Of a DNA stretch of 40,430 bases, positions 1 to 36,982 are shown one piece after another. The translations under genes and the position numbers were made by a program. Under the pieces are notes generated by a model. That model did not search any database. It had not been told where the DNA came from and was given only the letters and a program-made list of their open reading frames with translations. This DNA comes from Mogibacterium sp. (GTDB lineage Bacteria > Bacillota > Clostridia > Peptostreptococcales > Anaerovoracaceae): contig JAFVPI010000090.1 of NCBI GenBank assembly GCA_017505405.1, forward strand, positions 1-40,430. Reading direction: 5' to 3'. How positions within the stretch are numbered: the stretch's first letter is position 1; each line of letters opens with the position of its first letter.

Positions 1-819
1 AAAGAAGAACACCATCTTAGGCTTCTCCGGATCTCCCACTTCAGGAAGCACCTCGAACAGCTCCGACAGCAGATACAGCATGAATGCCGAATAAAGGCGT
101 GGCTTGTTTATCAGCGTCTCTGCGTCAAGTATATTGATGATCCCCCTTCCGTCAGGAGCCGTCAGGAAGAGGTCCCTTATATCTATAGCCGGTTCGCCGA
201 AGAAAGTGTCTGCTCCCTCGGATTCAAGCGCGACTATCGCCCTTATTATCGCTGAAGCCGACTGCTGAGGGATCAGGCCGTAGTCCATCTTGAACTCACT
301 GGAATGATCGGCGCAGTACTGTAGCGTAGCCTTCATGTCTTTTGTATCCGTGAGTATGAGTCCGAGATCGTCTGCGATCTTGAAAATGACCTGCATCAGC
401 TCAGTCTGAGTATCGTTGAGATCGAGCACCTGGCTGAAGAGCAGAGGCCCCATCTCCGATACTGTTGTGCGCAGCGGTGTTCCTTTCTGTGCATAAATAT
501 CAAAGATCGAGACCGGGAATCCGCGATAGCTGAATCCGTCTCTTATTTCAAAGCGGTCCAGTCTTTTCTGCATACCCTCACTATCGGTGCCGGGTACAGC
601 TATGCCGGCCATATCCCCTTTTACATCGGACATGAACACCGGTACTCCTATCTGCGAAAAGCTCTCAGCAAGGACCTTGAGAGTGACCGATTTTCCGGTA
701 CCTGTCGCGCCGCAGATGAAGCCATGCCTGTTGGCCTTATCCGGTCTCATGCATATCTTATCGCTAAGTGTTTCGCCGTCGCCCTTTCTGGCGAAATAAA
801 TCAATCCGTTGTCTACCAT
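1..819 (-). CDS. HerA-like (YjgR/DUF853 family) ATPase, 3' end cut by window edge
   Basis: The minus-strand frame opens at an ATG at 819, behind AAAAGGAGG, and stays open to base 1, so only the first 273 codons are present. Residues 37-44 (GATGTGKS) form a Walker A loop in the HerA/FtsK style, followed by the family-typical KVLAESF. The visible part ends in PKMVFFF, which is where the Walker B strand of this family begins; its acidic residues and the C-terminal half lie outside the window. Family knowledge: DUF853/YjgR proteins are hexameric HerA-type ATPases thought to act on DNA, but their cellular role is poorly defined. It diverges from the M16 peptidase, and the 75-bp repeats lie directly upstream, so they could be in its 5' leader. 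The family call is firm; the function is open. Confidence 0.82.
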   Translation of the reverse strand, partial: MVDNGLIYFARKGDGETLSDKICMRPDKANRHGFICGATGTGKSVTLKVLAESFSQIGVPVFMSDVKGDMAGIAVPGTDSEGMQKRLDRFEIRDGFSYRGFPVSIFDIYAQKGTPLRTTVSEMGPLLFSQVLDLNDTQTELMQVIFKIADDLGLILTDTKDMKATLQYCADHSSEFKMDYGLIPQQSASAIIRAIVALESEGADTFFGEPAIDIRDLFLTAPDGRGIINILDAETLINKPRLYSAFMLYLLSELFEVLPEVGDPEKPKMVFFF

Positions 820-864
820 TTCTGCCTCCTTTTAATGAGGTTCTTTTCTCCAGCCACTTCAATT

Positions 865-1101
865 GATGAACCATTCTATCGGAGGAGCCCAGCCTCCGGA
901 GATCAATGGTTTCATCCTTACGGCAACGCCGTTAATATCGATGAACCATTCTATCGGAGGAGCTCAGCCTCCGGAGATCAATGGTTTCATCCTTACGGCA
1001 ACGCCGTTAATATCGATGAACCATTCTATCGGAGGAGCCCAGCCTCCGTAGATCAATGGTTTCATCCTTGCGGCAACGCCGTTACTATCAATGAAACCAT
1101 T
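865..1101. repeat. Three 75-bp tandem repeats with internal hairpins
   Basis: Three head-to-tail copies begin at 865, 940 and 1015 (period exactly 75 bp), followed by a 12-bp degenerate start of a fourth copy. Copies differ at only a few bases. Each copy contains an imperfect inverted repeat (GATGAACCATT paired with AATGGTTTCATC, with an inner CGGAGG/CCTCCG helix) and a small hairpin ACGGC-AAC-GCCGT. The array fills the divergent gap between the HerA-like gene and the M16 peptidase gene. Because 75 is a multiple of three, spurious open frames run through it on both strands; I regard it as non-coding. Its role is unknown. Confidence 0.9.
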
Positions 1102-1122
1102 ATAGCATGGCATGCACTTTAA

Positions 1123-9128: not shown

Positions 9129-9908
9129 CTAGAATGAAATGATCTCCTCGTTCAGGTCATCTACTGTGATATTTACATTATGATAACGCTCTCTCTTCTC
9201 CGTGATCTTGCCGAAGTTGATCGCCTCCTGCGGGCAGTACTGTACACATGCGCAGCATGAGATGCACTTGTCACCGAATACTACTGCCTTTCCGGCGTAC
9301 CTGATATTGCCCGTCGGGCAGACCTTCGCACATGTTCCGCACATTATGCAATTATCATTGGCCCTGAGTGTCTGACCCTGCTTACGTGCGATTTCCGGCC
9401 ACTTGGCATGCTCGACTTTGTTGGCAATAGCCTTGCCGAGTTTTCTTTTAGTTTTGATGCCGGCCTTGATATCGTTCGCAAATCTCTCAGCAAAGTGCTC
9501 CGATCTTGCCTGTGATTCAACAGCGCCCATTTTCGGAAGCGTGAGGTCATGCGGGAAAAGCCAGATGCATGTGCACTGATGTGACACTGCTGCCCAGTAG
9601 TCGAGCGGAATAAGTGCGTTGAGCTTACTGAGACCTTCTCCTTTGTATGCTGCGCACTGAGCGATCCCGAAGGTGTATGCGTCAGGGCTGACCTTGATGT
9701 CATGAAGATATCTCTCAACATGACCAGGGAGTCCGCCGCCGTAGCATGGGAATATGAATCCTACCCTCTTTGCCTCTCTTACATCTGTAACCGCCGGATA
9801 CTTACGCATCATGATGATGTCAGTATCACCCAGGCTCTTTGCGATATTCTTTGCCATGTCGAGGCAGTTGCCTGTGCCCGAATAGCAGAAAATGACGTTC
9901 TCTTTCAT
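9129..9908 (-). CDS. EFR1-family protein: flavodoxin domain fused to two [4Fe-4S] clusters
   Basis: A 259-residue cytosolic electron carrier. The N-terminus has a flavodoxin-type FMN loop (SGTGNC, residues 10-15) and the matching IFPCYGGGLP segment (52-61). The C-terminus has two bacterial ferredoxin motifs, CIMCGTCAKVCP (Cys187/190/193, 197) and CISCCACVQYCP (Cys215/218/221, 225). This is the layout of EFR1 proteins, which are common in Clostridia; partners are usually unknown. It could feed electrons to radical-SAM or other reductive enzymes, but nothing beside it names a partner. The start follows AAGGAGA. Its own promoter lies at 9971-10000 and the shared terminator at 9035-9078, so it is monocistronic. 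Confidence 0.88.
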   Translation of the reverse strand: MKENVIFCYSGTGNCLDMAKNIAKSLGDTDIIMMRKYPAVTDVREAKRVGFIFPCYGGGLPGHVERYLHDIKVSPDAYTFGIAQCAAYKGEGLSKLNALIPLDYWAAVSHQCTCIWLFPHDLTLPKMGAVESQARSEHFAERFANDIKAGIKTKRKLGKAIANKVEHAKWPEIARKQGQTLRANDNCIMCGTCAKVCPTGNIRYAGKAVVFGDKCISCCACVQYCPQEAINFGKITEKRERYHNVNITVDDLNEEIISF

Positions 9909-9970
9909 CTTTTTTCTCCTTATTGCAGCGGCTCACGGCCGGCATTTCAATAACTATGATCTACAAAATG

Positions 9971-10000
9971 ATTATACAACATATCTCTTTGGGAAACCAA
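9971..10000 (-). promoter_or_regulatory. Predicted promoter for the EFR1 gene
   Basis: On the minus strand TTGGTT, an 18-bp spacer and a perfect TATAAT; the leader is about 55 nt. Confidence 0.6.
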
Positions 10001-10029
10001 ATATATATTTCCGGTTTTCGTAAGTATGT

Positions 10030-10100
10030 AAATCCGGCAGCAAATATTCCTTTCGCTCGTGCCTCGTTGTCTCGAAGCAGGACTATTTGCTGCCGGGTTT
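10030..10100. repeat. Large intergenic stem-loop (16-bp arms, 39-nt loop)
   Basis: AAATCCGGCAGCAAAT (10030-10045) pairs over 16 bp, with one G-U, with the segment at 10085-10100. It lies between the divergent promoters of the EFR1 and two-helix membrane protein genes, outside both predicted transcripts. It could be a small RNA, a mobile repeat or a structural element. Confidence 0.7.
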
Positions 10101-10128
10101 AAAGCTTATTAAAGACATTAGCGCAGAG

Positions 10129-10157
10129 TTTACAAAATGCGGCTGTCAGATTATACT
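10129..10157 (+). promoter_or_regulatory. Predicted promoter for the two-helix membrane protein gene
   Basis: TTTACA (10129-10134), a 17-bp spacer and TATACT (10152-10157), about 45 bp before the start codon. Confidence 0.6.
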
Positions 10158-10202
10158 TTCACTGTAATCAGACTTAAGTAATGTTCATCGGAGACCTTAT
10201 AA

Positions 10203-10922
10203 ATGGCAAAAAACAAATCAAGAAGCAATAAAACCAATACAGCCCAGTCAAAGCCTAAAAAAGAGACACCAAACAGTGAAGCGTCAAAACAGGCAGCATC
10301 CGGCGGTTCAGACAAGCCTCAGGCAAAACAGAAAGAGGTCCTCTATCAGGTAAAGACTAAAAGAGACAGCGGTGTTCTTAAGGCGTATATCACCTTTACT
10401 TACAGGATGCTCCACCCCGGCGTGTCCGCAAGGCTCATGCTCTACGGGCTGGTCATTGCTCTTCCGGGCATATTCTTTTTCAAGGATCTGTACTGGAGGA
10501 TCTTCTTTACGGGCATCGGTGTTCTGATGATACTTCTTGGTCTTTTCCGTCAGTACATCTCTCTCTGGATGACCAAAAGGAATGACCCTGATTATAAGAG
10601 CGGCGCGGAGTTCACCTATAACTTCACCGTCAATGATGCTGACTTCCTTAAAGACGGAGTGCGTTTCTCCGGACTCGGCAAGTATAAGGACATCACTGGT
10701 TTTTATCACGATGACTCTTACCTGTACATGGGAATGAAGAACAAGGAGATCATAGTCATCCCAAAGAGTGCATTTACAATTGGAGATTCCGATTCCTTCG
10801 AGGAGTTCATTTATAAGAAAAGCAAAAAGACCTGCCACTGGCTGCCGAATAACTACCGCGATGCTATGAAGCAAAGGCGGGCTCAGCGTGCAGTATCGTC
10901 AGGCAACATGATCAAAAAATAA
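10203..10922 (+). CDS. Two-helix membrane protein, YcxB-like
   Basis: A 239-residue protein of unknown function. Residues 1-45 are a polar Lys/Gln/Ser-rich tail, probably disordered. Two adjacent hydrophobic helices follow at about 78-93 and 98-115. The C-terminal half is a beta-rich soluble domain, and its ending (YKDITGFYHDDSYLYM then IIVIPKSAF) resembles the YcxB-like fold, where a short LYM-type strand precedes IPK. The chain ends strongly basic. The ATG at 10203 has GGAGA 9 nt upstream. It has its own promoter and a GC-rich terminator after it, so it is monocistronic. A second, unrelated two-helix protein of similar plan lies at 31634-32239. Confidence 0.7.
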   Translation: MAKNKSRSNKTNTAQSKPKKETPNSEASKQAASGGSDKPQAKQKEVLYQVKTKRDSGVLKAYITFTYRMLHPGVSARLMLYGLVIALPGIFFFKDLYWRIFFTGIGVLMILLGLFRQYISLWMTKRNDPDYKSGAEFTYNFTVNDADFLKDGVRFSGLGKYKDITGFYHDDSYLYMGMKNKEIIVIPKSAFTIGDSDSFEEFIYKKSKKTCHWLPNNYRDAMKQRRAQRAVSSGNMIKK

Positions 10923-10928
10923 TAATTG

Positions 10929-10956
10929 CGCCGGCTGCGTTGCGAACGCGCCGGCG
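10929..10956. terminator. Terminator hairpin between the two-helix membrane protein gene and the activase
   Basis: CGCCGGC (10929-10935) pairs with GCCGGCG (10950-10956), extended by GCGTT/AACGC with one bulged T and a GCG loop. On the minus strand it is followed by AATTATTATTTTTT, so it would end the BCAA superoperon; on the plus strand the T-tract is poor. Confidence 0.7.
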
Positions 10957-10960
10957 TATT

Positions 10961-11911
10961 CTATCTGTAATCAACGATCTCCGGTCCCTGAGCTGCTGCG
11001 ATATCGCGCAGCTTTTTCATTTCTTCCTTACCCGGAGTATAGAATCCGTCCTGACCGAACGGCATCCCTATCGCCTCATATTTGATCTTCCCGAATGTGT
11101 GATACGGAAGCAGCTCCATCTTCGCATCCGGCAGCGCGTCATGCACAAAGGCCGCCGATGCCGCAATGTTTTCTTCTGTATCATTCACGCCGCCTATGAC
11201 AGGTATCCTTATGACCAGTTCGGGAGACCCGTTCCCGTCAGGATGTCTGAGAGATCCCAGGAGAGCTATGTTTTCAAGTATGCGTTCATTGCTCACTCCG
11301 GTATATTTCCTGTGTACTTCAGGGTCCATGTGCTTAAGGTCCATGAAAATAAGATCCATGCGTTCAAGAGCAGGTCTGACAATGCTGAAGTCAAAGTATC
11401 CGCAGCTCTCGAGGTCAATGCTTATCCCCGAGTCATACAGCTCGCGCGACACATAGTCCAGAAACTCCGGCTGTGATGTCGCTTCACCTCCCGAGAAAGT
11501 GACTCCGCCTCCGCTGTAGGAGTAGAACAGACGATGCTTCATGACCTCTCTGATCACTGCATCAGCGTCCATCAGACTGACCATGTGTGTTCTGGCCTCC
11601 TCCGGGCATGCATGGACGCACGCTCCGCAGGCGATGCACGCATCATGCCCCGTAACTATCCCCGGTTTTCCATCGCTTACCGCAGCATCCATGTCGATCC
11701 CGATCCCCTGCGGGCACACCGCAGCACAGGCACCGCAGCCGATACATTTCCTTTTGTACCATCCTACGAGCTCCTTCTGCCTGAATCCCTCGGGATTTGA
11801 GCACCATCTGCAGCGGAGAGGACATCCCGCCATGAATATATCAGTCCGTATCCCCTCGCCGTCATTGACCGAGAAGGGCTGGATCTGCATTATATAGCCC
11901 TTAATACTCAT
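10961..11911 (-). CDS. Glycyl radical enzyme activating protein (radical SAM)
   Basis: A 316-residue radical-SAM activase. CPLRCRWC (Cys30, 34, 37) is the CxxxCxxC cluster that cleaves S-adenosylmethionine. An inserted ferredoxin-like domain carries CIGCGACAAVCP (Cys56-66) and CIACGACVHACP (Cys92-102), and SGGEAT at 140-145 is the SAM-binding GGE motif. Its job is to abstract hydrogen from the partner's glycine. The two extra clusters mark the activases of the dehydratase, decarboxylase and related glycyl radical enzymes, not the short PflA type. The start at 11911 matches the family N-terminus; an ATG at 11890 has the better ribosome site (AAGGG, 7 nt). It is the last gene of the BCAA superoperon, 45 bp behind its presumed substrate. 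Confidence 0.92.
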   Translation of the reverse strand: MSIKGYIMQIQPFSVNDGEGIRTDIFMAGCPLRCRWCSNPEGFRQKELVGWYKRKCIGCGACAAVCPQGIGIDMDAAVSDGKPGIVTGHDACIACGACVHACPEEARTHMVSLMDADAVIREVMKHRLFYSYSGGGVTFSGGEATSQPEFLDYVSRELYDSGISIDLESCGYFDFSIVRPALERMDLIFMDLKHMDPEVHRKYTGVSNERILENIALLGSLRHPDGNGSPELVIRIPVIGGVNDTEENIAASAAFVHDALPDAKMELLPYHTFGKIKYEAIGMPFGQDGFYTPGKEEMKKLRDIAAAQGPEIVDYR

Positions 11912-11923
11912 ACCTATAATTTT

Positions 11924-11944
11924 GCCCGGCCTCCGGGGCCGGGC
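11924..11944 (-). other. Intercistronic stem-loop between the glycyl radical enzyme and its activase
   Basis: A perfect 8-bp GC stem (GCCCGGCC and GGCCGGGC, 5-nt loop) lies in the 45-bp gap. On the minus strand it is followed by AAAATTATAGG, not a T-tract, so it is unlikely to be a full terminator. It could stabilise the upstream mRNA or lower activase expression. Confidence 0.6.
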
Positions 11945-11956
11945 TTGTGTCTGTTA

Positions 11957-14329
11957 TCAGAATGCTTCGTGGGCATTCCTCGCCATTATCGAATCCTGCA
12001 TCTCCTTTGACAGATTTGTGAACTGGGCGCTGTATCCGGCGACCCTCACAAGAAGGCTGCGGTATTTGTCAGGATTTGCCTGAGCATCAGCAAGCACTTC
12101 ATTGGAGATAGTATTGAACTGCACGTGGAAGCCGCCCAGAGCAAAATAGCTTTGCAGCATGGCTCCGAGGTTTGCCCTGCCGCGCTTTGTCGCAACAAGG
12201 TCGTGATTCAGCCGCAGGTTCAGCAAAGTGCCTCCGCTGTGGATATCGTGCTTCACTTTGGCGGCGCTCCTCAGAGCTGCGAGACAGGTCGATTTATCGC
12301 TGCCTGTATACGGTGAAACGCCCTCATTTATCGGATCCTTCGCATGCCTTCCCTCCGGAGTGGCTCCGAGCACCTTGCCGGTAGGCAGATAATTGGAGAT
12401 CCCCATGAATGCTGTAACGAAGTGGTTTCCGTAAAGGTCATTGTATTTCGTGACCTCATCATAGAAGAAATCCGCGAGATCACGTGCGATCGAGTCTACG
12501 TAATCATCGTCATTGCCGTATTTAGGGCAGGCCAGCGCGAGCTCCCTGAGCTGCTCATAGCCTTCCCAGTTGCTGTCGAGTGCGTCGATGATCTCAGCCA
12601 TCGTTGTCACGCCTTCCTCGAATACGAGTTTTCTGATAACCGCAAGAGAATTCGCTGTTACGGAAAGGCCTACGCCCGTGAATACAGGTCCTATATTGTA
12701 TTTTGCACCGCCGTCAACGAGGTCGCGGCCGTTCTTCATGCAGTACTCATTGCAGGCCGACATGAATGGCCTGTGCCCTATTTCTTTGTGGATCTCCTGC
12801 GCAGTCACAAGGCTTATCACTCCATGGCGCACAAGATATCTGAACTGCTTTTTCCATGCCTCCAGTATCTCATCCATCGAAGCAAAGGTTTTAGGATCCT
12901 TCTCCTCGAGCGATACCTGCTCTCCCGACAGGCGGCTCCTGCCCTGATTAAGAGCAAACTCGAGAGCTGCCGCAAAGCTGATGCTTGCAGCAGACGTCCA
13001 CTCGAATGTCTTGCGTGAGTGAGGCACTACGCAGCCGCAGTTGTTCCAGTCTCTTGCATCCTCCGGTCTGTACCCGAGGTTCGAGAGCATCTGGTAGCCC
13101 GTCCTGTCTCCGTGGATAGCCGGGAACCCGCATCCTGTTGATACAAGTTCAGTGACTGCCTCCATGAATTCAGGCGGACAGTCTGGGTGGATCCTGCAGC
13201 TCAGCGTAGGCTGATGGGTCATGCATTCTCTTGTGGCCTGTATCGCCATGTATGAAATCGTATTGGTGGCATCGGTCCCGTCGACCTTTGTGCCGCCTAT
13301 GGTGAGGTTCTCAAAGTTTGTGTATCCGGCAAAGAAGCTGGCAGTGTTCTTGGATATCGTCCATGCCCATTCGCTGTACTTCAGCCACAGACACTCAACA
13401 AGCTCGAGCGCCGTGTCATAGTCAATGATCCCGGCCTCTTCGTCAGCCTTGTAATACGGATACATGTACTGGTCGAATCTGCCCGGATTCCATGCGAGAG
13501 GGTTCTCTGCTATGATGCCTCCAAGCTGCACGAACCATACGAACTGTACCGCCTCCCTGAATGTCTTCGGCGGCTGCTCAGGTATGCGGGAGCAGACATC
13601 TGCGATCTCTTCAAGCTCCTTCTTTCTGACCGGATCCGTCTCTGCAGCAGCCATCTCTGCGGCCTTTTCGCTGTAGCGTCTGCCGAGAGTGATCATGCCG
13701 TCGGCAATAAGGACCATGGATTTATAGAAATCGATCTTCGCTTTCTGATCAGGGATCGCTTCATCAAGCTCAGCCATGTAGGCTTCCGCCTCAGCGCGTA
13801 TGCCGCCGTAGCCCTTCGGAAGCAGCACATCGACGTAATCAGCAGAGATCTCACCTATTCCGTTACGCCATTTGGAGTCGGTATCGAGAAAACCCGTATC
13901 AACGCCTATCTTTTTAGTTGCTTCGGATGTTCTTGCCAGAAATGCCTCTTCAACAGACTTGCCTTCCCAGTAAGGAAAGATATTCTTTCTTATAAATTCA
14001 GTCTGCTCAGGCGTTACATCGTAAGGATCCTGTCCCCTCTCAGGGAAAGTGTCTATCTCATCATTGATCCACAACCAGCCGAACTCAGGCGTAAGTATCG
14101 CGCATTTTCTGAATTCGCCGCTGGTGCCAACAATGAGCTCGCCCTCCCAGATGTTCACGGAAAGCTCGCAGCATGTATCGTAAAATGCCTGTGCTGTGCG
14201 CACCAGATGCGGCTGCCCCTCAGTGCGCTGAAAAGATTTGGTCCAGCTCCACGCGCGCTCATATGAGATATGCGGCTTCGTGTTTACGTAGTTATCTTTT
14301 ATCTTTTCAATTCTTTTTGTTATTGCCAT
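11957..14329 (-). CDS. Glycyl radical enzyme of unknown substrate, atypical active-site loop
   Basis: A 790-residue glycyl radical enzyme. The C-terminal radical loop is RVAGYSA (Gly765). The cysteine loop is NNCGCVVPH: aligned by its ARDW context to other family members, Cys433 is the thiyl-radical residue. Most dehydratases, C-N and C-S lyases and arylacetate decarboxylases of the family have Glu two residues later (CxE); here it is Val435. The pair of adjacent cysteines of pyruvate formate-lyase is also absent, although Cys431 lies two residues before. Length and N-terminal layout fit the PFL2/dehydratase-like branch. It lies 30 bp behind ilvE and ahead of its activase, inside the BCAA superoperon, suggesting a substrate from branched-chain or 2-oxo acid metabolism; this is inference. 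It would be oxygen sensitive. AGGGA precedes the ATG. Confidence 0.93.
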   Translation of the reverse strand: MAITKRIEKIKDNYVNTKPHISYERAWSWTKSFQRTEGQPHLVRTAQAFYDTCCELSVNIWEGELIVGTSGEFRKCAILTPEFGWLWINDEIDTFPERGQDPYDVTPEQTEFIRKNIFPYWEGKSVEEAFLARTSEATKKIGVDTGFLDTDSKWRNGIGEISADYVDVLLPKGYGGIRAEAEAYMAELDEAIPDQKAKIDFYKSMVLIADGMITLGRRYSEKAAEMAAAETDPVRKKELEEIADVCSRIPEQPPKTFREAVQFVWFVQLGGIIAENPLAWNPGRFDQYMYPYYKADEEAGIIDYDTALELVECLWLKYSEWAWTISKNTASFFAGYTNFENLTIGGTKVDGTDATNTISYMAIQATRECMTHQPTLSCRIHPDCPPEFMEAVTELVSTGCGFPAIHGDRTGYQMLSNLGYRPEDARDWNNCGCVVPHSRKTFEWTSAASISFAAALEFALNQGRSRLSGEQVSLEEKDPKTFASMDEILEAWKKQFRYLVRHGVISLVTAQEIHKEIGHRPFMSACNEYCMKNGRDLVDGGAKYNIGPVFTGVGLSVTANSLAVIRKLVFEEGVTTMAEIIDALDSNWEGYEQLRELALACPKYGNDDDYVDSIARDLADFFYDEVTKYNDLYGNHFVTAFMGISNYLPTGKVLGATPEGRHAKDPINEGVSPYTGSDKSTCLAALRSAAKVKHDIHSGGTLLNLRLNHDLVATKRGRANLGAMLQSYFALGGFHVQFNTISNEVLADAQANPDKYRSLLVRVAGYSAQFTNLSKEMQDSIMARNAHEAF

Positions 14330-14359
14330 ATTCCAAGTCCCTGTCAGTTAAGACAATGC

Positions 14360-15439
14360 TTACAGAGTAACTACCCAGTCTCCCATTACATCAGGTGCAG
14401 TGCCTGTCTGCATTCCATAAAGCGTATCGTAAAGCTTCTGGCTGAGTTCGCCAACTTTTTCACCATTGATCGGGAAGTTCTCTCCTCTGTATCTCAGAAG
14501 ACCGATAGGCGAAACGACGCATGCCGTTCCTGTAGCCCACGCTTCTGTCAGTGATCCGTCTGCAGCTGCTGCAAGCAGATCATCGATCTCAAGGCGCTTC
14601 TCTTCTACCTCAACACCCCATTTTCTCATCAGTCTTATTGCACTGTCACGTGTGACGCCCGGAAGGATCGAGCCTGTAAGCGATGATGTGTAAACTTTGC
14701 CGTTGATCTTGAAGAAAGCATTGGATGTGCCGACCTCTTCAACATACTTGTGCTCTTTGGCATCGAGCCACAGCACTTCTTCGCAGCCCTGCTTTTTAGC
14801 TTCGGTGGCAGCGATCATTCCGCACGAGTAGTTGCCTCCGCACTTAGCGAAGCCTGTTCCTCCTACTGCTGCACGGATGTACTCTTCCTCTACCCATATG
14901 CGGCTTCCGTGGAGTTCCTTGTCGTTACCTTCATAGTAAGCTGCCACAGGGCTCAGGATGATTATGAACCAATACTTTGAAGCAGGATGCACAGCCATCG
15001 AAGGCTCCGGAGAAATAATGAACGGTCTGATGTAGAGCGATGTGCCCTGTGCTTCCGGTACCCAGTCCCTGTCAACATCAACGAGAGCCTTTACAGCCTC
15101 GATGAAGAGATCTACATCGATCCTTGGGATGCAAAGACGGTCGTTGCTGTTCTGCAGACGTTTTGCGTTCATATCAGGGCGGAACAGGTTGATACCTCCT
15201 TCAGGATTCCTGTACGCTTTCATGCCTTCAAATGTCATCTGCGCATAGTGAAGTGTGCATGCTGCAGGATCGATCGACAGCGGTCCGTATGGAACGATGC
15301 GTCCGTCATGCCAGCCCTGACCCTCATCGTAGTCCATAAGAAACATATGGTCAGTGTAGTATTTGCCGAATCCCAGAGCTGTCTGGTCCGGTTTTGCCTT
15401 TGGTGACGCAGTTCTTGTTATCTTGAAATCATATCCCAT
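14360..15439 (-). CDS. ilvE: Branched-chain amino acid aminotransferase
   Basis: A 359-residue fold-type IV PLP aminotransferase. The PLP lysine is Lys199 in GGTGFAKCGGNYSCG; TFEGMKAYR (69-77) and VEEVGTSNAFF are further signatures of the longer (class II, about 360-residue) BCAT branch. It interconverts Val, Leu and Ile with their 2-oxo acids using glutamate. The start has a strong AAAGGAGG. It follows ilvA by 31 bp and precedes the glycyl radical enzyme by 30 bp, inside the superoperon. Normal in length and motifs. A leucine-dehydrogenase-type gene at 29920 offers a second route for the same amination. Confidence 0.95.
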   Translation of the reverse strand: MGYDFKITRTASPKAKPDQTALGFGKYYTDHMFLMDYDEGQGWHDGRIVPYGPLSIDPAACTLHYAQMTFEGMKAYRNPEGGINLFRPDMNAKRLQNSNDRLCIPRIDVDLFIEAVKALVDVDRDWVPEAQGTSLYIRPFIISPEPSMAVHPASKYWFIIILSPVAAYYEGNDKELHGSRIWVEEEYIRAAVGGTGFAKCGGNYSCGMIAATEAKKQGCEEVLWLDAKEHKYVEEVGTSNAFFKINGKVYTSSLTGSILPGVTRDSAIRLMRKWGVEVEEKRLEIDDLLAAAADGSLTEAWATGTACVVSPIGLLRYRGENFPINGEKVGELSQKLYDTLYGMQTGTAPDVMGDWVVTL

Positions 15440-16703: not shown

Positions 16704-17939
16704 TTATTTATCTGTACCGTCAAGCCATGTGATAAGCTGGCTCGCGGCCCTTCCCGACATTCCTCCGTGGCGGAGTTCCCATTTGCGGGCAGCATCCTCA
16801 AGCTCACTGCCGCTGAATTCAATTCCTTTCCTGGCCGCGAGCCCCCTGACTATTTCAAGATAGTCTTTTGGGCCAGGCTTCGGATAGTAGATCGTTACAC
16901 CGAACCTGCCTGCAAGCGACAGCTTCTCCTCCATTGTGTCCGATCTGTGCACGTCCTCGTTATATTCCATGTCGCTGCGGTCGCCCCAGGTCTCACGTAT
17001 GAGGTGCCGGCGGTTCGATGTGGCATATATCAGGACCTTATCTGACCGCGTTTCAAGGGCTCCCTCGAGCATGGCCTTCAGCTCCTTGTAATCGCTTTCG
17101 TTTTCTTCGAATGAAAGATCATCGAGGAACAGGATGAACCTGTAATTGCGTTTTTTGATTGCCGAAAGGATCTGAGGCAGCCTGCTTCTGTCCGGCTTTG
17201 ATACCTCTATAAGCCTTAAGCCGCGGTCAGCGTAATCATGCATGAGCGCATGGACGCTCGTCGATTTGCCCGTACCGCTGTCTCCATACAGAAGAACATT
17301 ATTGGCAAAGTGGCCGCTCACAAACGCTTCCGTGTTGTCTCTGAGCGTCTTCTTCTGTGATTCATAACCGATCAGGTCATCAAAACACACATCCGCGCTG
17401 TCAGTAACGGGGATCAGCTTCAGCTCTGCGCCGTCCGCCGCAGGATCGACCCTGAAAGCCTTATAGAGTCCGTACATTCCGGCTCCGTACTTTTCATAGT
17501 GGTCAGTAAGCGTGCGGGCAAACTCCTTTACATCCTCTGCACCGGCCAGCCTGCAGCTCAGTTCCTTTATGCGGCGCCCCGCATCAGTTGTGCAGTCCTC
17601 TTCATACGGTGCTTTGTAATCAAGTATCAAAGGGAGCAGGCCTTCATCTTCATCAAAGTCGGTTTCCTTTGTTCTGAACAGTTCCATGAAAATGGCCAGA
17701 TCGCGCTCCGCAAGCTGCATAAGCGTCGAATCCGGCAATATTTCACGGCGCTCACAAGCCAGTGTGAACGCGTTGTCATGCATCATGAGTATGTATGTGA
17801 GCCACTGCTGCCATACATTTCCGGAAAGCCCGAATTCCGTTGCGAAGGCAGCAAGAGTGCCTGCAAGCGCGGATGCGGATCCGGTCACGCTGTGGTCCCA
17901 GTCAGTATAAAATAAAAAGTTGTTTTTCTTATTGTTCAT
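16704..17939 (-). CDS. DUF815-family AAA+ ATPase
   Basis: A 411-residue ATPase. The N-terminal 180 residues are helical and not assignable. The AAA+ core has Walker A GDSGTGKST (residues 219-227), Walker B FILFLDDLSF (268-277), sensor-1 IYATSNRRHL (304-313) and RFGVTIYYP (345-353), all typical of DUF815. The function of DUF815 is unknown; the fold suggests remodelling or moving of a protein or nucleic acid. Its ATG overlaps the leuB stop (TGATG), so it is translationally coupled to leuB, and ilvA starts 24 bp downstream. No membrane segment is visible. Why it sits inside a BCAA operon is unclear; it might assist an operon enzyme, or simply be a passenger. Confidence 0.88.
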   Translation of the reverse strand: MNNKKNNFLFYTDWDHSVTGSASALAGTLAAFATEFGLSGNVWQQWLTYILMMHDNAFTLACERREILPDSTLMQLAERDLAIFMELFRTKETDFDEDEGLLPLILDYKAPYEEDCTTDAGRRIKELSCRLAGAEDVKEFARTLTDHYEKYGAGMYGLYKAFRVDPAADGAELKLIPVTDSADVCFDDLIGYESQKKTLRDNTEAFVSGHFANNVLLYGDSGTGKSTSVHALMHDYADRGLRLIEVSKPDRSRLPQILSAIKKRNYRFILFLDDLSFEENESDYKELKAMLEGALETRSDKVLIYATSNRRHLIRETWGDRSDMEYNEDVHRSDTMEEKLSLAGRFGVTIYYPKPGPKDYLEIVRGLAARKGIEFSGSELEDAARKWELRHGGMSGRAASQLITWLDGTDK

Positions 17940-24283: not shown

Positions 24284-25844
<1,561 letters not shown>

Positions 25845-25857
25845 GCTCTGCACCTCC

Positions 25858-27564
25858 CTATAGTTTCATGAAGTCTGTTATGTGGCTTCCGCCGCCCACC
25901 ATCGGCCTTACCATCTCGTCAATGTCAAGCATGCAGTCAATGATGTACCCTTCTCCGCATGCCATGGCTTCCTCTATCGCCTCAGCGAGGTCTTTCTGGT
26001 TGTTGACCCTGCGCCCGCGGAGACCGTAGGCTTCAGCCAGCTTAACGAAATCCGGGCCTCTGTCCATGTCGGTCTCAGAGAAATTCTTCTTATATATAAG
26101 GTTCTGCCACTGTCTCACCATGCCCAGTGTCTGATTGTCGAACACGAACGTGATCACCGGAAGTCCGTAATGCTGTACTGTAGTGAGCTCGTTGCAGTTC
26201 ATGCGGAAGCTTCCGTCGCCTGCAATGTGTATCACCATCTTGTCCGGGTTGCCCACCTTTGCACCTATGGCAGCTCCAAGCCCGAAGCCCATAGTTCCGA
26301 AACCGCCGGAAGTGATCAGCTGGCCCGGATAATCAAAGTGGAAATGCTGGATCGCCCACATCTGATGCTGGCCTACATCTGTGGCGACAATGGTATCCAT
26401 AGGCATCATCCTTGCAATGGTATCGCATACCTGTTTAGGATTCAGGGTATCGCCGCCTTCGTCGTATAAGGTCTCTGTAGGGAATGAAAAAACATATTTC
26501 TTCCATTCAGAGTGATCCTGCTGGGTAAGCCTCTCGTTGAGCATCCTGAGCACTTCTTTTGCATCACCGACTATGTGGTGGTCGGTCTGGACGTTCTTGT
26601 TGATCTCGGATCTGTCTATATCTATATGGACTATCTTCGCCTGGCTTGCAAATGAATCCGGGTCGAGAGCCACTCTGTCGGAGAACCTGCAGCCGACTGC
26701 TATAAGCAGATCACACTCGTTTACACCAATGTTGGATGCCTGCGAGCCATGCATTCCTATCATACCCGTCGCAAGAGGATTGCGGCCCTCCATGCCGCCG
26801 CCTCCCATGACTGTTATGGCAGTAGGAGCATCCATCAGATTCACGAACTCATTGAATTCCTTGTGAGCCCTTCCTCTGACTACGCCTCCGCCGCAGATAA
26901 GCATAGGCTTTTCAGATTCAGCGATCATACCGATGAGCTTGTCTATATCCTCCACATCAACGGACGGCTTGTGAAGATCTGCCATATTGCGATCATAAAG
27001 AGCATCGAGCATTCCCGATTTCTTGTGCTCTTTTCTCGGAACGAATTCATACTCGGCTGTCTCAGCCGTTACATTCTTGAGTATATCGATGAATACCGGT
27101 CCCGGTCTTCCGCTTCTGGCGATCGCAAAAGCTCTTCTCACCGTGTCAGCCAGCTTATTTACATCACTGATCTGGAAAGTGCACTTGGTTATAGGAAGCA
27201 TGACGCCCGTGCTGTCAACTTCCTGGAATGAATCCTTTCCTATAAGGCTTTCAGCCACATTGCACGAAATAAATACTACCGGGGATGAATCCATGTACGC
27301 GGTAGCGACTCCGGTAGTAAGGTTGGTTGCACCCGGCCCCGAAGTAGAGAACGCCACCCCAACTTTTCCCGTGCTGCGTGCATAGCCGTCAGCCGCGTGC
27401 GAAGCTCCCTGCTCGTGTGCCGTCAGATAATGGTTTATTCTGCCGCGGTACTTGACCAGAGCATCGTATACATAGAGTATGGTTCCTCCCGGGTAGCCGA
27501 ATACAGTATCGACTTCCTGCTCAAGCAGGCATTCCATTAGTATTTCTGCGCCAGTAAGTTTCAA
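25858..27564 (-). CDS. ilvB: Acetolactate synthase large subunit (second set), TTG start
   Basis: A 568-residue thiamine diphosphate enzyme making acetolactate or 2-aceto-2-hydroxybutyrate. Glu51 in TAHEQGASHAADGYAR activates the cofactor; GCRFSDR is the FAD-contact RFxDR-type motif, and GDGSFRMNCNELTT with the following Asn is the ThDP/Mg motif. It is the copy closest to textbook biosynthetic AHAS. The conserved N-terminus KLTGAEILMECL requires a TTG start at 27564; the next ATG (codon 10) would cut into the fold. TTG is unusual here and may lower translation. It lies 49 bp behind the first ilvN and 13 bp before its own small subunit. Confidence 0.94.
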   Translation of the reverse strand: MKLTGAEILMECLLEQEVDTVFGYPGGTILYVYDALVKYRGRINHYLTAHEQGASHAADGYARSTGKVGVAFSTSGPGATNLTTGVATAYMDSSPVVFISCNVAESLIGKDSFQEVDSTGVMLPITKCTFQISDVNKLADTVRRAFAIARSGRPGPVFIDILKNVTAETAEYEFVPRKEHKKSGMLDALYDRNMADLHKPSVDVEDIDKLIGMIAESEKPMLICGGGVVRGRAHKEFNEFVNLMDAPTAITVMGGGGMEGRNPLATGMIGMHGSQASNIGVNECDLLIAVGCRFSDRVALDPDSFASQAKIVHIDIDRSEINKNVQTDHHIVGDAKEVLRMLNERLTQQDHSEWKKYVFSFPTETLYDEGGDTLNPKQVCDTIARMMPMDTIVATDVGQHQMWAIQHFHFDYPGQLITSGGFGTMGFGLGAAIGAKVGNPDKMVIHIAGDGSFRMNCNELTTVQHYGLPVITFVFDNQTLGMVRQWQNLIYKKNFSETDMDRGPDFVKLAEAYGLRGRRVNNQKDLAEAIEEAMACGEGYIIDCMLDIDEMVRPMVGGGSHITDFMKL

Positions 27565-27613
27565 TTTCCTGATATATCCTTTCTATTTATATATTAGGGC
27601 TCAGCCCCGTTCT

Positions 27614-28084
27614 TTACTTCTCCATTGCTATGGTGCCGGTCCTCTGGATCTCGATGATACCATAGCCTTTCATCGCCTTGATGAAGTCCTCCACGTTCTC
27701 CGGCTCGGCATGATACTCGAGCAGAAGATATTTCGGAGCGATTTTCATTACCTTGGCTCCCATCAGCTGACAGAACTCTATGAGCGGTGTGCGGTTCGAC
27801 AGGTTGTACGCAACTTTGATGAGCATCATCTCGAGACATATGCTCTTTGCATCGCTCAGCCTTCTCACCTTGATGACATCGACATTCTTATTGAGCTGCT
27901 TCTCGATCTGGTCGATGGTCCTCTGATCACCCGTAGATGTTATTGTCATGCTCGAGATCTCATGGTTTTCGGTTTCACCTACAGCCAGAGTATCTATGTT
28001 GAAGCCGCGTCGTGCGAAAAGGCCCGATACGGCAGACAGGACTCCGTCCCTGTTTTCTACAAGTACTGAAAAGATCCCTTTCAT
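27614..28084 (-). CDS. ilvN: Acetolactate synthase regulatory small subunit (first set)
   Basis: A 156-residue small subunit of the IlvH/IlvN type. FSVLVENRDGVLSAVSGLFARRGFNIDTL is the ACT domain, followed by an ALS_ss_C-like half ending in IEIQRTGTIAMEK. The length is the standard for the family (about 160). It should pair with the large subunit 15 bp upstream and confer feedback control by a branched-chain amino acid. AGGAGG lies 8 nt before the ATG. It differs clearly from the second small subunit in the operon, so the two pairs are not a recent duplication. Confidence 0.94.
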   Translation of the reverse strand: MKGIFSVLVENRDGVLSAVSGLFARRGFNIDTLAVGETENHEISSMTITSTGDQRTIDQIEKQLNKNVDVIKVRRLSDAKSICLEMMLIKVAYNLSNRTPLIEFCQLMGAKVMKIAPKYLLLEYHAEPENVEDFIKAMKGYGIIEIQRTGTIAMEK

Positions 28085-28099
28085 TGAATCTGCCTCCTG

Positions 28100-29722
28100 T
28101 CACTTAACATTGTTTTCACTGTCAACATCGCACACCAGGATGCGCGCCCCTGCTCCCTCAAGGAACCAGTCGAGCTTATCATCGAGTTCGTCATTCGATG
28201 CGCACTCACAGTACTGCAGCCCGTAGGCTTCGGCGATCTTTCCGTAATCAGGCCAGTCGCTGAGCCTGACACCCTCATAATGCGAATCGTAGTTGCGGTA
28301 CTGGTATTCCCTTACCAGTCCGAGGAATCTGTTCCTTACCAGAAGTATCCTCAGGTCTACATTATTGTTTCGCATGGTGGCGAGCTCGTTCATCGCCATC
28401 TGGAAGGCTCCGTCACCTATGACTGCAACAGTCTGCCTCTCAGGACACACAAGTTTGGCTCCGATCGCTGCAGGTATCGAATACCCCATGGTGCCCATTC
28501 CGCCGGTCGTCATGAAACGGCCTTCCTTCATTATATAGTTATCAGCGCTCCAGAGCTGGTTCTGTCCGACATCAGCCACATACACTGCATCATCATCCAT
28601 TTTTTCCGACAGCTTCTGCACCAGCAGATTCGGATCGACCAGCCTGTCGCTGAAGACTCGGGTATCGACAGTGTTTCTTTTGATCTCTTCCAGCTCTTCT
28701 ATCCAGCTGCTGTCCTTACGGCTTATATCTCCGTCGAGCATCAATGCGAATATTTCGCTGAGATCTCCTACGAGCGGAATGGTTGGCCCTACGTTTTTAC
28801 CGATCTCCGCCGTATCTATATCAATATGTATGATTGCACGTCTTGTAAGCTTCTCAGGTTTCGGAATGGCCCTGTCAGCGATTCGCGCTCCTACGACTAC
28901 CAGCAGGTCTGCCCGGCCCACAGCTTTATTGGCGTATGGTTTTCCGTTATTGCCCAGCATCCCGAAATTGAGAGGATGTTTCTTAGGAAGCACTCCCATT
29001 CCCATCATCGTGTGTACAAGAGGGATGTTGAACTTTTCGCAGAATTCGCGTATTACCTGCTCGCCGTTTCCGAGTATGACACCTCCGCCCGCGCAGATAA
29101 GAGGTTTCTCCGCCTGGTCCAGCAGGCTGACTACTCTTTTCAGCTGTATAGGATTGATCTTTATCTCAGGCTTGTATCCGCGTATGATCACCCCGGAAGG
29201 ATATGAGAACTGCTTTTTCAGCTCAGCCTGCTGCACATCCATAGGTATGTCGATCAGCACCGGACCTTTGCGGCCTGTTGATGCGATATAGAATGCTTCC
29301 TTGAATACACGCGGAATATCGTCGGGATCCTTGACGAGGTAGCTGTGCTTTACGAATGATCTTGTGGCGCCGCGCATGTCGGCTTCCTGGAACACATCCC
29401 TTCCCAGCAGCTTGCTCGATACCTGGCCGGATATTGCAATAAGAGGAATGCTGTCAGCATAAGCTGTCGCAAGAGCGGTAATAAGGTTGGTAGCTCCCGG
29501 GCCGGATGTAACCACGCACACGGCAGGCTTACGCGACATTCTGGCATAACCGCTCGCGGCATGTCCGGCATTCTGCTCCTGACGCACCAGTACATGTTCG
29601 ATTCCCGAGTTATACAAGCCCTCATAGAATGGCGCTATTGCCACTCCCGGATAGCCGAACACCAGGCTTATACCCTCTGCCTCAAGGCATTTCACCATCG
29701 CTTCTGCACCTGTCACGGTCAT
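28100..29722 (-). CDS. ilvB: Acetolactate synthase large subunit (first set), first gene of the superoperon
   Basis: A 540-residue ThDP enzyme of the AHAS family, clearly diverged from the second copy. Glu49 in VRQEQNAGHAASGYAR is the cofactor-activating residue, GARIADR replaces the usual RFxDR motif, and GDGAFQMAMNELAT is the ThDP/Mg motif. Active-site motifs are intact, so it should be active; the changed FAD/substrate loop leaves room for a different acceptor preference. The ATG at 29722 lies directly after AAGGAGGAAA; an upstream frame of 23 residues overlaps the promoter. Other ThDP enzymes of this fold (glyoxylate carboligase, oxalyl-CoA decarboxylase) are possible but the paired small subunit argues for AHAS. 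Confidence 0.9.
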   Translation of the reverse strand: MTVTGAEAMVKCLEAEGISLVFGYPGVAIAPFYEGLYNSGIEHVLVRQEQNAGHAASGYARMSRKPAVCVVTSGPGATNLITALATAYADSIPLIAISGQVSSKLLGRDVFQEADMRGATRSFVKHSYLVKDPDDIPRVFKEAFYIASTGRKGPVLIDIPMDVQQAELKKQFSYPSGVIIRGYKPEIKINPIQLKRVVSLLDQAEKPLICAGGGVILGNGEQVIREFCEKFNIPLVHTMMGMGVLPKKHPLNFGMLGNNGKPYANKAVGRADLLVVVGARIADRAIPKPEKLTRRAIIHIDIDTAEIGKNVGPTIPLVGDLSEIFALMLDGDISRKDSSWIEELEEIKRNTVDTRVFSDRLVDPNLLVQKLSEKMDDDAVYVADVGQNQLWSADNYIMKEGRFMTTGGMGTMGYSIPAAIGAKLVCPERQTVAVIGDGAFQMAMNELATMRNNNVDLRILLVRNRFLGLVREYQYRNYDSHYEGVRLSDWPDYGKIAEAYGLQYCECASNDELDDKLDWFLEGAGARILVCDVDSENNVK

Positions 29723-29753
29723 TTTCCTCCTTGTATTGTTTCTTCTTGTATGC

Positions 29754-29793
29754 GTAACAATTACTTTATCACGATTAAGGAAATGTAACAATT
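29754..29793 (-). promoter_or_regulatory. Candidate operator: paired AATTGTTAC direct repeats
   Basis: The 9-mer AATTGTTAC occurs on the minus strand at 29785-29793 (over the -35 box) and 29754-29762 (at the transcription start), 31 bp or about three helical turns apart. The placement suits a repressor binding both sites. The regulator is unknown. Confidence 0.4.
29763..29791 (-). promoter_or_regulatory. Predicted promoter of the BCAA superoperon
   Basis: On the minus strand TTGTTA (plus 29786-29791), a 17-bp spacer and TAAAGT (plus 29763-29768) with an upstream TG (extended -10). The leader is only about 30 nt, so a T-box or peptide-leader attenuator does not fit in it. Confidence 0.6.
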
Positions 29794-34618: not shown

Positions 34619-36982
34619 TTACCCGAGTCCGATCGCAAGGCCTATGAGCCGCACTATCAGCGCAGCCACCCATGCGATGGCACACTGGCAAAGCACTACA
34701 TACAGAGCCCAGCCGCTTCCGAGCTCCCTTCTGATCGCTGCTACGGCAGCCACACACGGCGTGTACAGCAGACTGAATACCAGCATTGACGCTGCTGCAA
34801 GCGATGAAAGAGCAGCCGCTACCCCGCCGGCAAAGAGGACATTCATAGTTGCAACGACGCTCTCCTTGGCCATAAATCCGCTTATGAGAGCCGTAACTAT
34901 GCGCCAGTCTCCCAGGCCCACAGGCTTGAATACCGGCGCTAGAATGCCGGCTATGGCAGCCAGCATGGAATTCTGAGCGTCATCCACCATATTGAACCTG
35001 AAGTCGAAGCTCTGCAGGAACCAGACAACTATCGTAGCGATCAGTATCACAGAGAACGCCCTCTGCAGGAAGTCCTTGGATTTGTCCCAGATGAGATGCC
35101 CGACGTTTTTCGCAGACGGAAGTCTGTAATTAGGAAGTTCCATTACCAGAGGCACGGCTTCTCCCTTGAAGACCGTCTTCTTCATGACGATGGCCGATAA
35201 TATGCCGGTCACTACACCAAGCAGATAAAGCGCCGTTACGATCCACCATCCGCTGCCCGGGAAGAATGCCGCTACAAAGAATCCGTATATAGGCAGTTTG
35301 GCCGTACATGACATGAAAGGCGTGAGCAATATGGTCATTCGCCTGTCTCTTGAGCTCGGCAGAGTCCGCGTTGCCATTACGGCCGGCACCGTGCAGCCGA
35401 ATCCGATCAGCATAGGCACTATGCTTCGTCCGGACAAACCTATTTTGCGCAGTGGCTTGTCCATTACGAAAGCTACTCTCGCGATGTAGCCGCTGTCCTC
35501 CAGCAGTGACAGGAAGAAGAACATCGTCACTATTATAGGCAGAAAGCTCAGTACGCTTCCGACACCCTCAAATATGCCGTCCATGACCAGACTGCTTATG
35601 GCCTGATTCACATGACCTGCGGTCATGGCACTTTCGGCTGATGTTCCCAGCGCGTCAATGCCTGTTTCAAGCAGATCCTGCAGGAACGGCCCGATAACAG
35701 CAAATGTCAGGAAGAACACTGCCGCCATTACGGCTATGAATACCGGGATGGCTGTGTACTTGCCCGTAAGCACATTATCATACCTGCTGCTCCTTATATG
35801 CTCCTTGCTTTCTTTCGGCCTTTTGATGCAGCGGTCACAGACTTTGTATATGAAGGAGTAACGCATATCTGCCATGGCAGCGCTTCTGTCTATGCCCCTC
35901 TCTCTTTCCATCTGAAGGATCAGGTGTTCCAGAGTTTCTTTCTCATTCTTATCGAGTTTGAGACTGTCAAGTATGAGCTGGTCTCCTTCGACCAGTTTTG
36001 CGGCAGCGAAACGGAGCGGTATACCCTCCCTTTCTGCATGATCCTCTATAAGGTGACAAACTGCATGCAGACACCTGTGCACAGCTCCGCCGTTGTCTGA
36101 ACTGTCGCAGAAGTCCTGACGCATCGGACCTTCCTGGTATTTCGCCACGTGTATCGCATGACTGACAAGCTCGTCTACTCCCTGGTTCTGAGCGGCTGAT
36201 ATAGGTACCACCGGAACGCCCAGCATCTGCTCCATCCTGTTGATATCGACAGATCCGCCGTTTCCGGTCATCTCGTCCATCATGTTGAGGGCTACCACCA
36301 TAGGCAGTCCCATCTCGAGCAGCTGCTCCGTAAGGTACATGCTGCGGTCAATACTGGTTACATCTACTATGTTGATTATCGCTTTAGGCTTCTCCCTGAG
36401 CACAAAATCCCTCGACACGAGCTCTTCGCCCGAGTATGGCGACATGGAATAAATGCCCGGAAGATCCGTAATGAGGGTATCCGGATGCCCTTTGATAACG
36501 CCATCCTTGCGGTCTACAGTTACTCCCGGAAAATTGCCTACATGCTGATTCGAACCGGTGAGCTGATTGAAGAGCGTCGTCTTTCCGCTGTTCTGATTTC
36601 CGACCAGAGCAAAGGTCAGAGTGGTACCGTCAGGAAGCGGGTCTTCGCCTTCCTTTTCATGATATCTGCCCTCTTCTCCGAGTCCCGGATGCTCGGCCTC
36701 ATCATCCCCGTCATCGATCACATCTTTATAGATGCCGGCCTCATCATCCGTAATCAGTATCTCTATCTTCTCAGCATCGGATAAGCGCAGCGTAAGCTCG
36801 TAACCATGTATGCGCAGTTCCATGGGATCCCCCATAGGAGCGAACTTGATGAGCTTTACATGCGCTCCCGGAATGACTCCCATGTCAAGGAGGTGCTGAC
36901 GCAGAGCGCCCTCACCTCCTACCTTTTCAATGTATGCCGACTGTCCTTGTTTTATTTCACTTAATTTCTTGATTTCGATCAT
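34619..36982 (-). CDS. feoB: FeoA-FeoB fusion ferrous iron transporter
   Basis: A 787-residue protein. Residues 1-78 are a FeoA-type SH3-like domain (LLDMGVIPGAHVKLI...). After an acidic linker (80-118) comes the FeoB G domain: GNQNSGKT (G1, 128-135), the switch region VGNFPGVT, DLPG (G3, 173-176) and NMMDE (G4). The C-terminal half is the membrane part with the two Gate motifs, including MLIGFGCTVPAVMATR with its conserved cysteine. It imports Fe(II) under anaerobic conditions, powered or gated by GTP. The fusion of FeoA is found in some Clostridia. It lies 19 bp behind pfkA with a weak Shine-Dalgarno and is probably the last gene of the ridA-pfkA-feoB unit. No Fur box was clearly seen. Confidence 0.94.
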   Translation of the reverse strand: MIEIKKLSEIKQGQSAYIEKVGGEGALRQHLLDMGVIPGAHVKLIKFAPMGDPMELRIHGYELTLRLSDAEKIEILITDDEAGIYKDVIDDGDDEAEHPGLGEEGRYHEKEGEDPLPDGTTLTFALVGNQNSGKTTLFNQLTGSNQHVGNFPGVTVDRKDGVIKGHPDTLITDLPGIYSMSPYSGEELVSRDFVLREKPKAIINIVDVTSIDRSMYLTEQLLEMGLPMVVALNMMDEMTGNGGSVDINRMEQMLGVPVVPISAAQNQGVDELVSHAIHVAKYQEGPMRQDFCDSSDNGGAVHRCLHAVCHLIEDHAEREGIPLRFAAAKLVEGDQLILDSLKLDKNEKETLEHLILQMERERGIDRSAAMADMRYSFIYKVCDRCIKRPKESKEHIRSSRYDNVLTGKYTAIPVFIAVMAAVFFLTFAVIGPFLQDLLETGIDALGTSAESAMTAGHVNQAISSLVMDGIFEGVGSVLSFLPIIVTMFFFLSLLEDSGYIARVAFVMDKPLRKIGLSGRSIVPMLIGFGCTVPAVMATRTLPSSRDRRMTILLTPFMSCTAKLPIYGFFVAAFFPGSGWWIVTALYLLGVVTGILSAIVMKKTVFKGEAVPLVMELPNYRLPSAKNVGHLIWDKSKDFLQRAFSVILIATIVVWFLQSFDFRFNMVDDAQNSMLAAIAGILAPVFKPVGLGDWRIVTALISGFMAKESVVATMNVLFAGGVAAALSSLAAASMLVFSLLYTPCVAAVAAIRRELGSGWALYVVLCQCAIAWVAALIVRLIGLAIGLG

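Follow-up and report, generated by a model that had tools for sequence, protein, structure and literature searches.

A glycyl radical enzyme family lacking the CXE glutamate, with a member encoded behind ilvE in Mogibacterium sp.

Results

The locus

The window analyzed here is a 40,430-nucleotide stretch of DNA from Mogibacterium sp. (contig JAFVPI010000090.1), and its features are collected in Table 1. An intact minus-strand frame encodes a glycyl radical enzyme (GRE) with the marks of the superfamily: an RVxGY-type Gly loop, a catalytic Cys, and a radical SAM activase nearby. Translation confirmed the radical loop RVAGYSA of the original prediction. In the Cys loop, NNCGCVVPH, the alignment identifies Cys433 as the catalytic residue, Cys431 as a second Cys, and Val435 as the replacement of the Glu of the CXE motif. 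The prediction had also stated that adjacent cysteines are missing; there is indeed no Cys-Cys pair, but an invariant C431-G432-C433, with the second Cys two residues before the catalytic one, had been overlooked, as had Glu160 and the SKWR strand. The window protein scores below the cutoff of every NCBIfam GRE model.

The gene for the predicted activase follows, beginning 45 bp downstream, and its best NCBIfam model is the GRE-activating protein TIGR02494 (290.6 bits versus a cutoff of 174.35). The translation contains CPLRCRWC and two CxxCxxCxxxCP motifs. The spacer between the two genes holds a strong 9-bp G+C hairpin that has no run of T residues on the minus strand and may set the GRE:activase ratio.

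The GRE gene lies 30 bp behind ilvE and is co-directional with it, as had been noted. Upstream on the same strand are ilvD, leuA, leuC, leuD, leuB, a DUF815-type AAA ATPase gene, ilvA, and ilvE. Before ilvD, at the head of the operon, are ilvC and two tandem TPP-enzyme/small-subunit pairs, read as two acetolactate synthases. Of the 25 same-genus ilvA-ilvE loci, all but L210 have a homolog of the DUF815-type gene immediately ahead of ilvA. Elsewhere in the window, a FeoA domain is fused to FeoB, and one open reading frame carries a repeated unit (Table 1). No Rfam family was found in the window at gathering thresholds.

Table 1. Features of the window discussed in the text
Feature	Position	Strand	Basis or remark
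GRE, 790 aa, CXE-less family	11957..14329	-	Translation, NCBIfam scan, tree, alignment
Cys loop, N429-N-C431-G-C433-V-V435-P-H437	13019..13045	-	Translation, alignment
SKWR strand, S152-K-W-R155-N-G-I-G-E160	13850..13876	-	Alignment
Gly loop RVAGYSA with radical Gly765	12026..12046	-	Translation, alignment
GRE-activating radical SAM enzyme, 316 aa	10961..11911	-	TIGR02494, motifs
9-bp G+C hairpin in GRE-activase spacer	11924..11944	-	Possible mRNA element
ilvE, at the end of the ilv/leu operon	14360..15439	-	NCBIfam scan; neighbor, probably without a functional tie to the GRE
DUF815-type AAA ATPase gene between leuB and ilvA	16704-17939	-	298 bits
Two tandem TPP-enzyme genes, each with a small-subunit-like gene	25284-29791	-	Translations, TPP domains
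239-aa ORF with YcxB-like domain, beside the activase gene	10203-10922	+	Domain scan
Stretch lacking at the corresponding site in genome G033 (GRE, activase, plus-strand 239-aa ORF)	9966..14360		Genome comparison
FeoA domain fused to FeoB, one 787-aa protein	34619-36982	-	Domain scan
ORF with repeated NIDEPFYRRS..GDQWFHPYGNAV unit	724-1122	+	Translation

A family with valine in place of the CXE glutamate

Genome contigs were scanned with patterns of the window protein, a sampling in which remote members are underrepresented, and at least 79 loci matched. Among the loci listed, the GREs split into two groups, one with 52 to 97% identity to the window protein and the sequence W[NS]NCGCVVPH wherever that part is present, and one with at most 39% identity and a C-x-E loop. 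Over all family rows collected, identity to the window protein runs from 52 to 100%. We aligned 69 family rows with 27 other GREs, leaving rows shorter than 700 aa out of the tree and the residue counts; the 69 rows include near-copies (94 different sequences among all 96 tree rows), and none of the 27 comparison GREs was recognized as a pyruvate formate-lyase (PFL), X-succinate synthase (XSS), or arylacetate decarboxylase.

Val435 occupies the CXE position in all 69 family rows and Glu in all 27 others of the same alignment, so the valine that the original prediction pointed out is a family trait and not a chance substitution. Cys431 is likewise present in 69/69 family rows, versus Cys in 0/27 other GREs. 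Glu160 is found throughout the family (69/69); the other 27 have His (21), Asp (3), Glu, Asn, and Arg (1 each), and the one with Glu, L077, bears a CXE loop, so that Glu160 is not unique to the family. Catalytic Cys433, radical Gly765, S152, K153, W154, R155, H372, H437, and M642 are each present in 69 of 69 rows, and at 33 positions a residue that is constant to 97% or more within the family is rare (at most 8%) outside it. S152, K153, W154, R155, E160, L278, H372, C431, V435, and M642 would make up an invariant, family-specific pocket, and the window GRE is apparently an active member.

In a tree computed quickly under LG+G4, in which the outgroup branches are long (L018b, L077, L077b, and L104 are long) and most same-genus copies were left out, the family forms one clade (SH-aLRT, 100). 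It groups, with a support of 99, with the CutC-type rows L101, L118, and L120 plus L077; L101 alone scored as CutC. Judged by record title, the family members among the listed matches include sequences from Clostridia, Sporomusaceae, Synergistaceae, Treponema, and Cohaesibacter. The family is sparse: under a strict E-value limit, 5 of 398 genomes from the phylum of the window carry it. One member with an apparently broken frame (L066) lies on a 9.1-kb Enterobacter asburiae contig, perhaps by contamination or recent transfer, and no similar DNA was found in an E. coli genome collection. Titles and abstract openings of the literature searched yielded no GRE with a CVV loop, and the family may correspond to an unnamed cluster in earlier GRE surveys.

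Genomic contexts of the family

Among the loci listed, an activase homolog is encoded on the GRE strand at 69 of 72. The exceptions are two loci that end inside the GRE gene (L055 and L075) and L066, whose GRE frame appears broken near the contig end. Neighboring genes, called with a codon score, often include a regulator. An HTH-cupin cluster gene is present at 33/72 loci, next upstream at 27 (on the same strand at 25) and just after the activase at 6; an FCD-type GntR cluster gene is present at 10/72, next upstream at 6. These assignments were checked in Pfam for two HTH-cupin members and one GntR member. The order is GntR-GRE-activase on an annotated plasmid record of Peptoclostridium acidaminophilum, and sirtuin gene, HTH-cupin regulator, GRE, and activase in Acetoanaerobium noterae. 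No gene of either cluster lies beside the GRE at the loci closest to the window (L001 to L008, L010, and L054). The recurring unit is GRE-activase, moving between contexts, with a regulator gene at many loci outside the genus of the window.

Homologs of the M20 hydrolase encoded at L050 occur close to the GRE at 6 of 76 family loci (L047, L050, L051, L034, L025, and L046), representing four tree lineages, versus 0/60 control windows; none was found at the other 70 loci searched. At L046, the hydrolase accompanies two TIGR01928-type enolases (o-succinylbenzoate synthase model; 360 and 347 bits), of a fold family that also holds N-acylamino acid racemases, and a gene for a class III CoA-transferase that overlaps the beginning of the GRE gene. 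Downstream at L039 are methylaspartate mutase S and E, methylaspartate ammonia-lyase, and a fumarase-type subunit. Other loci have a LIV-type binding protein (L037), 3-hydroxyacyl-CoA dehydrogenase (3HCDH), SDR, and GlcD-like genes (L123), a TRAP transporter operon with a ribokinase-like gene (L043, Cohaesibacter), a Cys/Met-metabolism PLP enzyme (L031), or D-serine ammonia-lyase (L025). A LIV transporter reading of genes at L128 was dropped when the 375-aa gene there matched no NCBIfam model. The contexts favor amino acid catabolism in general; since they disagree on the compound, we name no substrate from them.

The ilvE locus and branched-chain amino acids

The original prediction had proposed a branched-chain amino acid (BCAA) or 2-oxo acid compound as the substrate and asked whether CVV homologs always lie beside ilvE or leu genes. 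They do not. With a threshold of 40% identity to the window proteins, BCAA genes lie in the available flanks of 10 of the 62 family loci covered over 12 kb or more and in 2 of 60 control windows, which were placed at even distances along five genomes, two of them carrying the family (Fisher P = 0.03 by locus); the other 52 loci have no BCAA gene and provide the contexts that the prediction had named as evidence against itself. Four of the 10 belong to the Mogibacterium-type clade of the window and four to a Sedimentibacter-type clade (ilvB and ilvC); the remaining two are L026 (leuC and leuD) and L029 (an IlvD homolog, 41%). Counted by lineage, the figures are 4 of an assumed 36 versus 2 of 60 controls (P = 0.19), where 36 is an estimate and clustering at 80% identity gives 29. 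Leu-like genes in an Anaerotignum group, at 37 to 40% identity, fall below the threshold. In the tree, the ilvE-linked rows make up one terminal clade, resting on five rows.

Within the genus, the GRE is found in 18 of 36 genomes, in two as partial genes. In a survey of 40 same-genus genomes (30 of 41 ilvE matches taken; flanks of up to 1.5 kb), 25 ilvA-ilvE loci comprised 12 with the GRE behind ilvE, 12 without it within the flank, and one at a contig edge. Three genomes (G014, G022, and G029) have the GRE elsewhere, away from ilvE. In the close relatives L004 and L005, the GRE follows an aspartokinase-like gene after 16 and 30 bp, L004 having the same GRE identity and 438-aa upstream gene as G022; in L008, it lies 24 bp behind whiA.

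Genome G033 has an ilvE 99% identical to that of the window and, directly behind it, the ferredoxin-type gene found at 9129-9908 in the window, leaving the site empty. Homology between the two breaks off at about 14360 and restarts at about 9965, and G003 has the same arrangement with an empty site. Neither G033 (77% complete) nor G003 (94% complete) yielded a family GRE at any other place. The intervening stretch is a cassette that was gained or lost. A gain followed by losses would be the simpler story because operons with a less similar ilvE also lack the cassette. The stretch includes the 239-aa YcxB-like open reading frame; the corresponding space measures just 400 bp in L001 and 235 bp in L002, both close relatives. 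The position of the GRE beside amino acid synthesis genes looks accidental.

Discussion

Proposed chemistry and alternatives

The reading that we favor, with a probability of roughly 40%, is that of a discrete non-CXE GRE family in which Glu160 would serve as the base and Cys431 as a thiol, with an amino acid-like substrate, and which in the window would be a dispensable insertion behind ilvE. The activase would generate the Gly765 radical, which would pass to Cys433. No Glu stands beside Cys433 to deprotonate a hydroxyl as one does in the ketyl route of CutC, IslA, and the diol dehydratases, and acid/base duty would fall to Glu160. Cys431 would line the pocket as a second active-site thiol, a donor of a hydrogen or a proton, the rest of the pocket being aliphatic or aromatic (L278, F333, F339, V435, M642, and I644) together with K153 and T445; any charged residue for carboxylate binding there would be a candidate at most. 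The likeliest substrate would be a small amino acid, free or N-acylated, consumed by anaerobes that ferment amino acids, as the family hosts would do. The place behind ilvE would reflect a recent insertion that relies on the ilv operon to be expressed.

The main rival is a CutC-like eliminase that would cleave a C-N, C-O, or C-S bond in a hydroxylated or amino substrate, and in which Glu160 would take over from the CXE Glu for the same kind of reaction. CutC chains (PDB 5fau and 9f3w) are the closest solved relatives (662 bits with the window protein, 907 with the family profile), and the grouping of the family with CutC-type rows and L077 in the tree points the same way. To map positions, CutC and HypD chains were aligned with the family, the pocket being placed by sequence alignment: Glu160 corresponds to CutC Asp216 and HypD His160, Cys431 to CutC Met487, and Val435 to CutC Glu491 and HypD Glu436. 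An acid is thus retained at the Asp216 position, but E491, Y208, Y506, and M487 are all replaced. Among the 13 CutC active-site residues named in PMC12451663, five have the same letter in the family (C433, T445, F333, F339, and I644) and eight are changed (E491, Y208, H209, D216, T334, M487, L698, and Y506). At the choline site (Y208, D216, E491, T502, and Y506), only T502 is kept, as T445, the others being replaced by S152, E160, V435, and N/S/T449. The CutC model TIGR04394 (cutoff, 1050 bits) gave 688.5 bits for the window protein, 754.9 for L042, and 775.1 for L047. With the CXE Glu absent and 8 of 13 CutC residues different, the known ketyl-radical route appears, by sequence, to be closed to the family, and we regard an eliminase of the CutC kind as possible but doubtful.

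A further step from our preferred reading would be that the two cysteines of C431-G-C433 and Glu160, arranged around an aliphatic amino acid, carry out a new radical reaction that is neither a known elimination nor a decarboxylation, for example, a two-thiol epimerization, the cleavage of a C-C bond, or a skeleton rearrangement without B12; this we hold to be rather unlikely as a specific assignment.

That the enzyme acts in BCAA or 2-oxo acid metabolism, and that this is why it shares expression with the ilv operon, is improbable. The 30-bp co-directional arrangement, the ilvB and ilvC homologs of the Sedimentibacter group, leuC and leuD at L026, the LIV-type binding protein at L037, and the enrichment by locus would all suit such a function. 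Against it, ilvE linkage is confined to one terminal clade, operons of the same genus exist without the GRE, close relatives sit behind an aspartokinase-like gene or whiA, and the enrichment by lineage is not significant. A BCAA function found no sufficient support in the neighborhoods, the tree, the control windows, and the same-genus ilvE survey.

Still more improbable is an XSS-like enzyme that makes or cleaves a C-C bond and uses an oxyanion hole in its Cys loop to hold a carboxylate. According to PMC12358834, XSS binds the fumarate carboxylate in such a hole; Val435 might allow the same, and the hydrophobic pocket residues would be compatible. The sequences are far apart, however, the family profile giving 414 bits with TutD and 393 with MasD versus 907 with CutC, which contradicts a closest relationship to the alpha subunits of benzylsuccinate (BSS) and methylalkylsuccinate (MASS) synthases. 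No extra-subunit gene recurs among neighboring open reading frames of at least 80 aa, a size that XSS small subunits can fall below. A decayed GRE is scarcely credible: the missing Glu is essential in IslA and HypD (PMC8473560 and PMC7077986), but the catalytic Cys, the radical Gly, and Val435 are each conserved in 69/69 rows and an activase accompanies 69 of 72 loci.

A GRE family in which the CXE Glu is replaced in every member examined and a second Cys is invariant offers a clean target for a new anaerobic radical reaction. The original prediction of a GRE of new function agrees with this picture, in that the protein falls outside the characterized families tested and lacks the usual active-site base, and its chemistry is probably one not yet described. 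We infer that it may supply a missing step of amino acid fermentation in guts and sediments. According to a 2024 review (PMC11574389), many abundant gut GREs have no known function.

Comparison with characterized GREs

The tree that the original prediction called for, built with other GREs, places the family as a single clade nearest to CutC-type enzymes. Besides the five active-site residues noted above, CutC shares with the family the Gly loop and the pair Cys433-Val434. The score below the TIGR04394 cutoff and the replacement of four of the five choline-site residues exclude membership in CutC, and the CutC equivalog L101 is 37.6% identical to the window protein. More generally, the family departs from CXE-type eliminases in having CVV in 69 of 69 rows versus C-x-E in the 27 other GREs.

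HypD is, like the window enzyme, a GRE with an activase, but it carries the CXE Glu that the family lacks, and its Ser334 corresponds to Phe333. Membership in HypD was rejected on the model NF043068 (543.9 bits versus a cutoff of 1100) and on the replacement of His160, Asp278, and Glu436 by E160, a gap, and V435. Identity to the window protein is 32% for L081 and 36% for L103, the two rows labeled HypD. L081 (G000:C146:74370-76712) is a second GRE of the same genome as the window and a HypD equivalog (1443.5 bits). IslA (PDB 7kq3) is also a GRE with an activase; it reaches only 442.5 bits with the window protein and has Cys468-Ile-Glu470 where the family has CVV, and its E470Q variant is inactive (PMC8473560 and PMC7077986).

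PFL resembles the family in having two cysteines in the Cys loop. In PFL they are adjacent, as C-C, whereas the family has C-G-C, and the similarity amounts to 106 to 132 bits; the PFL model TIGR01255 gave 131.7 bits versus a cutoff of 994, and PFL membership was rejected. For the broad PFL2-3 subfamily TIGR01774 (cutoff, 678.2 bits), the window protein falls below (631.7) and L042 (726.1) and L047 (759) above. Because these two members pass the cutoff, the family lies at the edge of this loose group. The benzylsuccinate and methylalkylsuccinate synthases are distant, and their oxyanion hole for a carboxylate, as described in PMC12358834, is a possible parallel only. The window GRE thus sits outside the characterized families tested, and its nearest relatives among them are the CutC-type eliminases.
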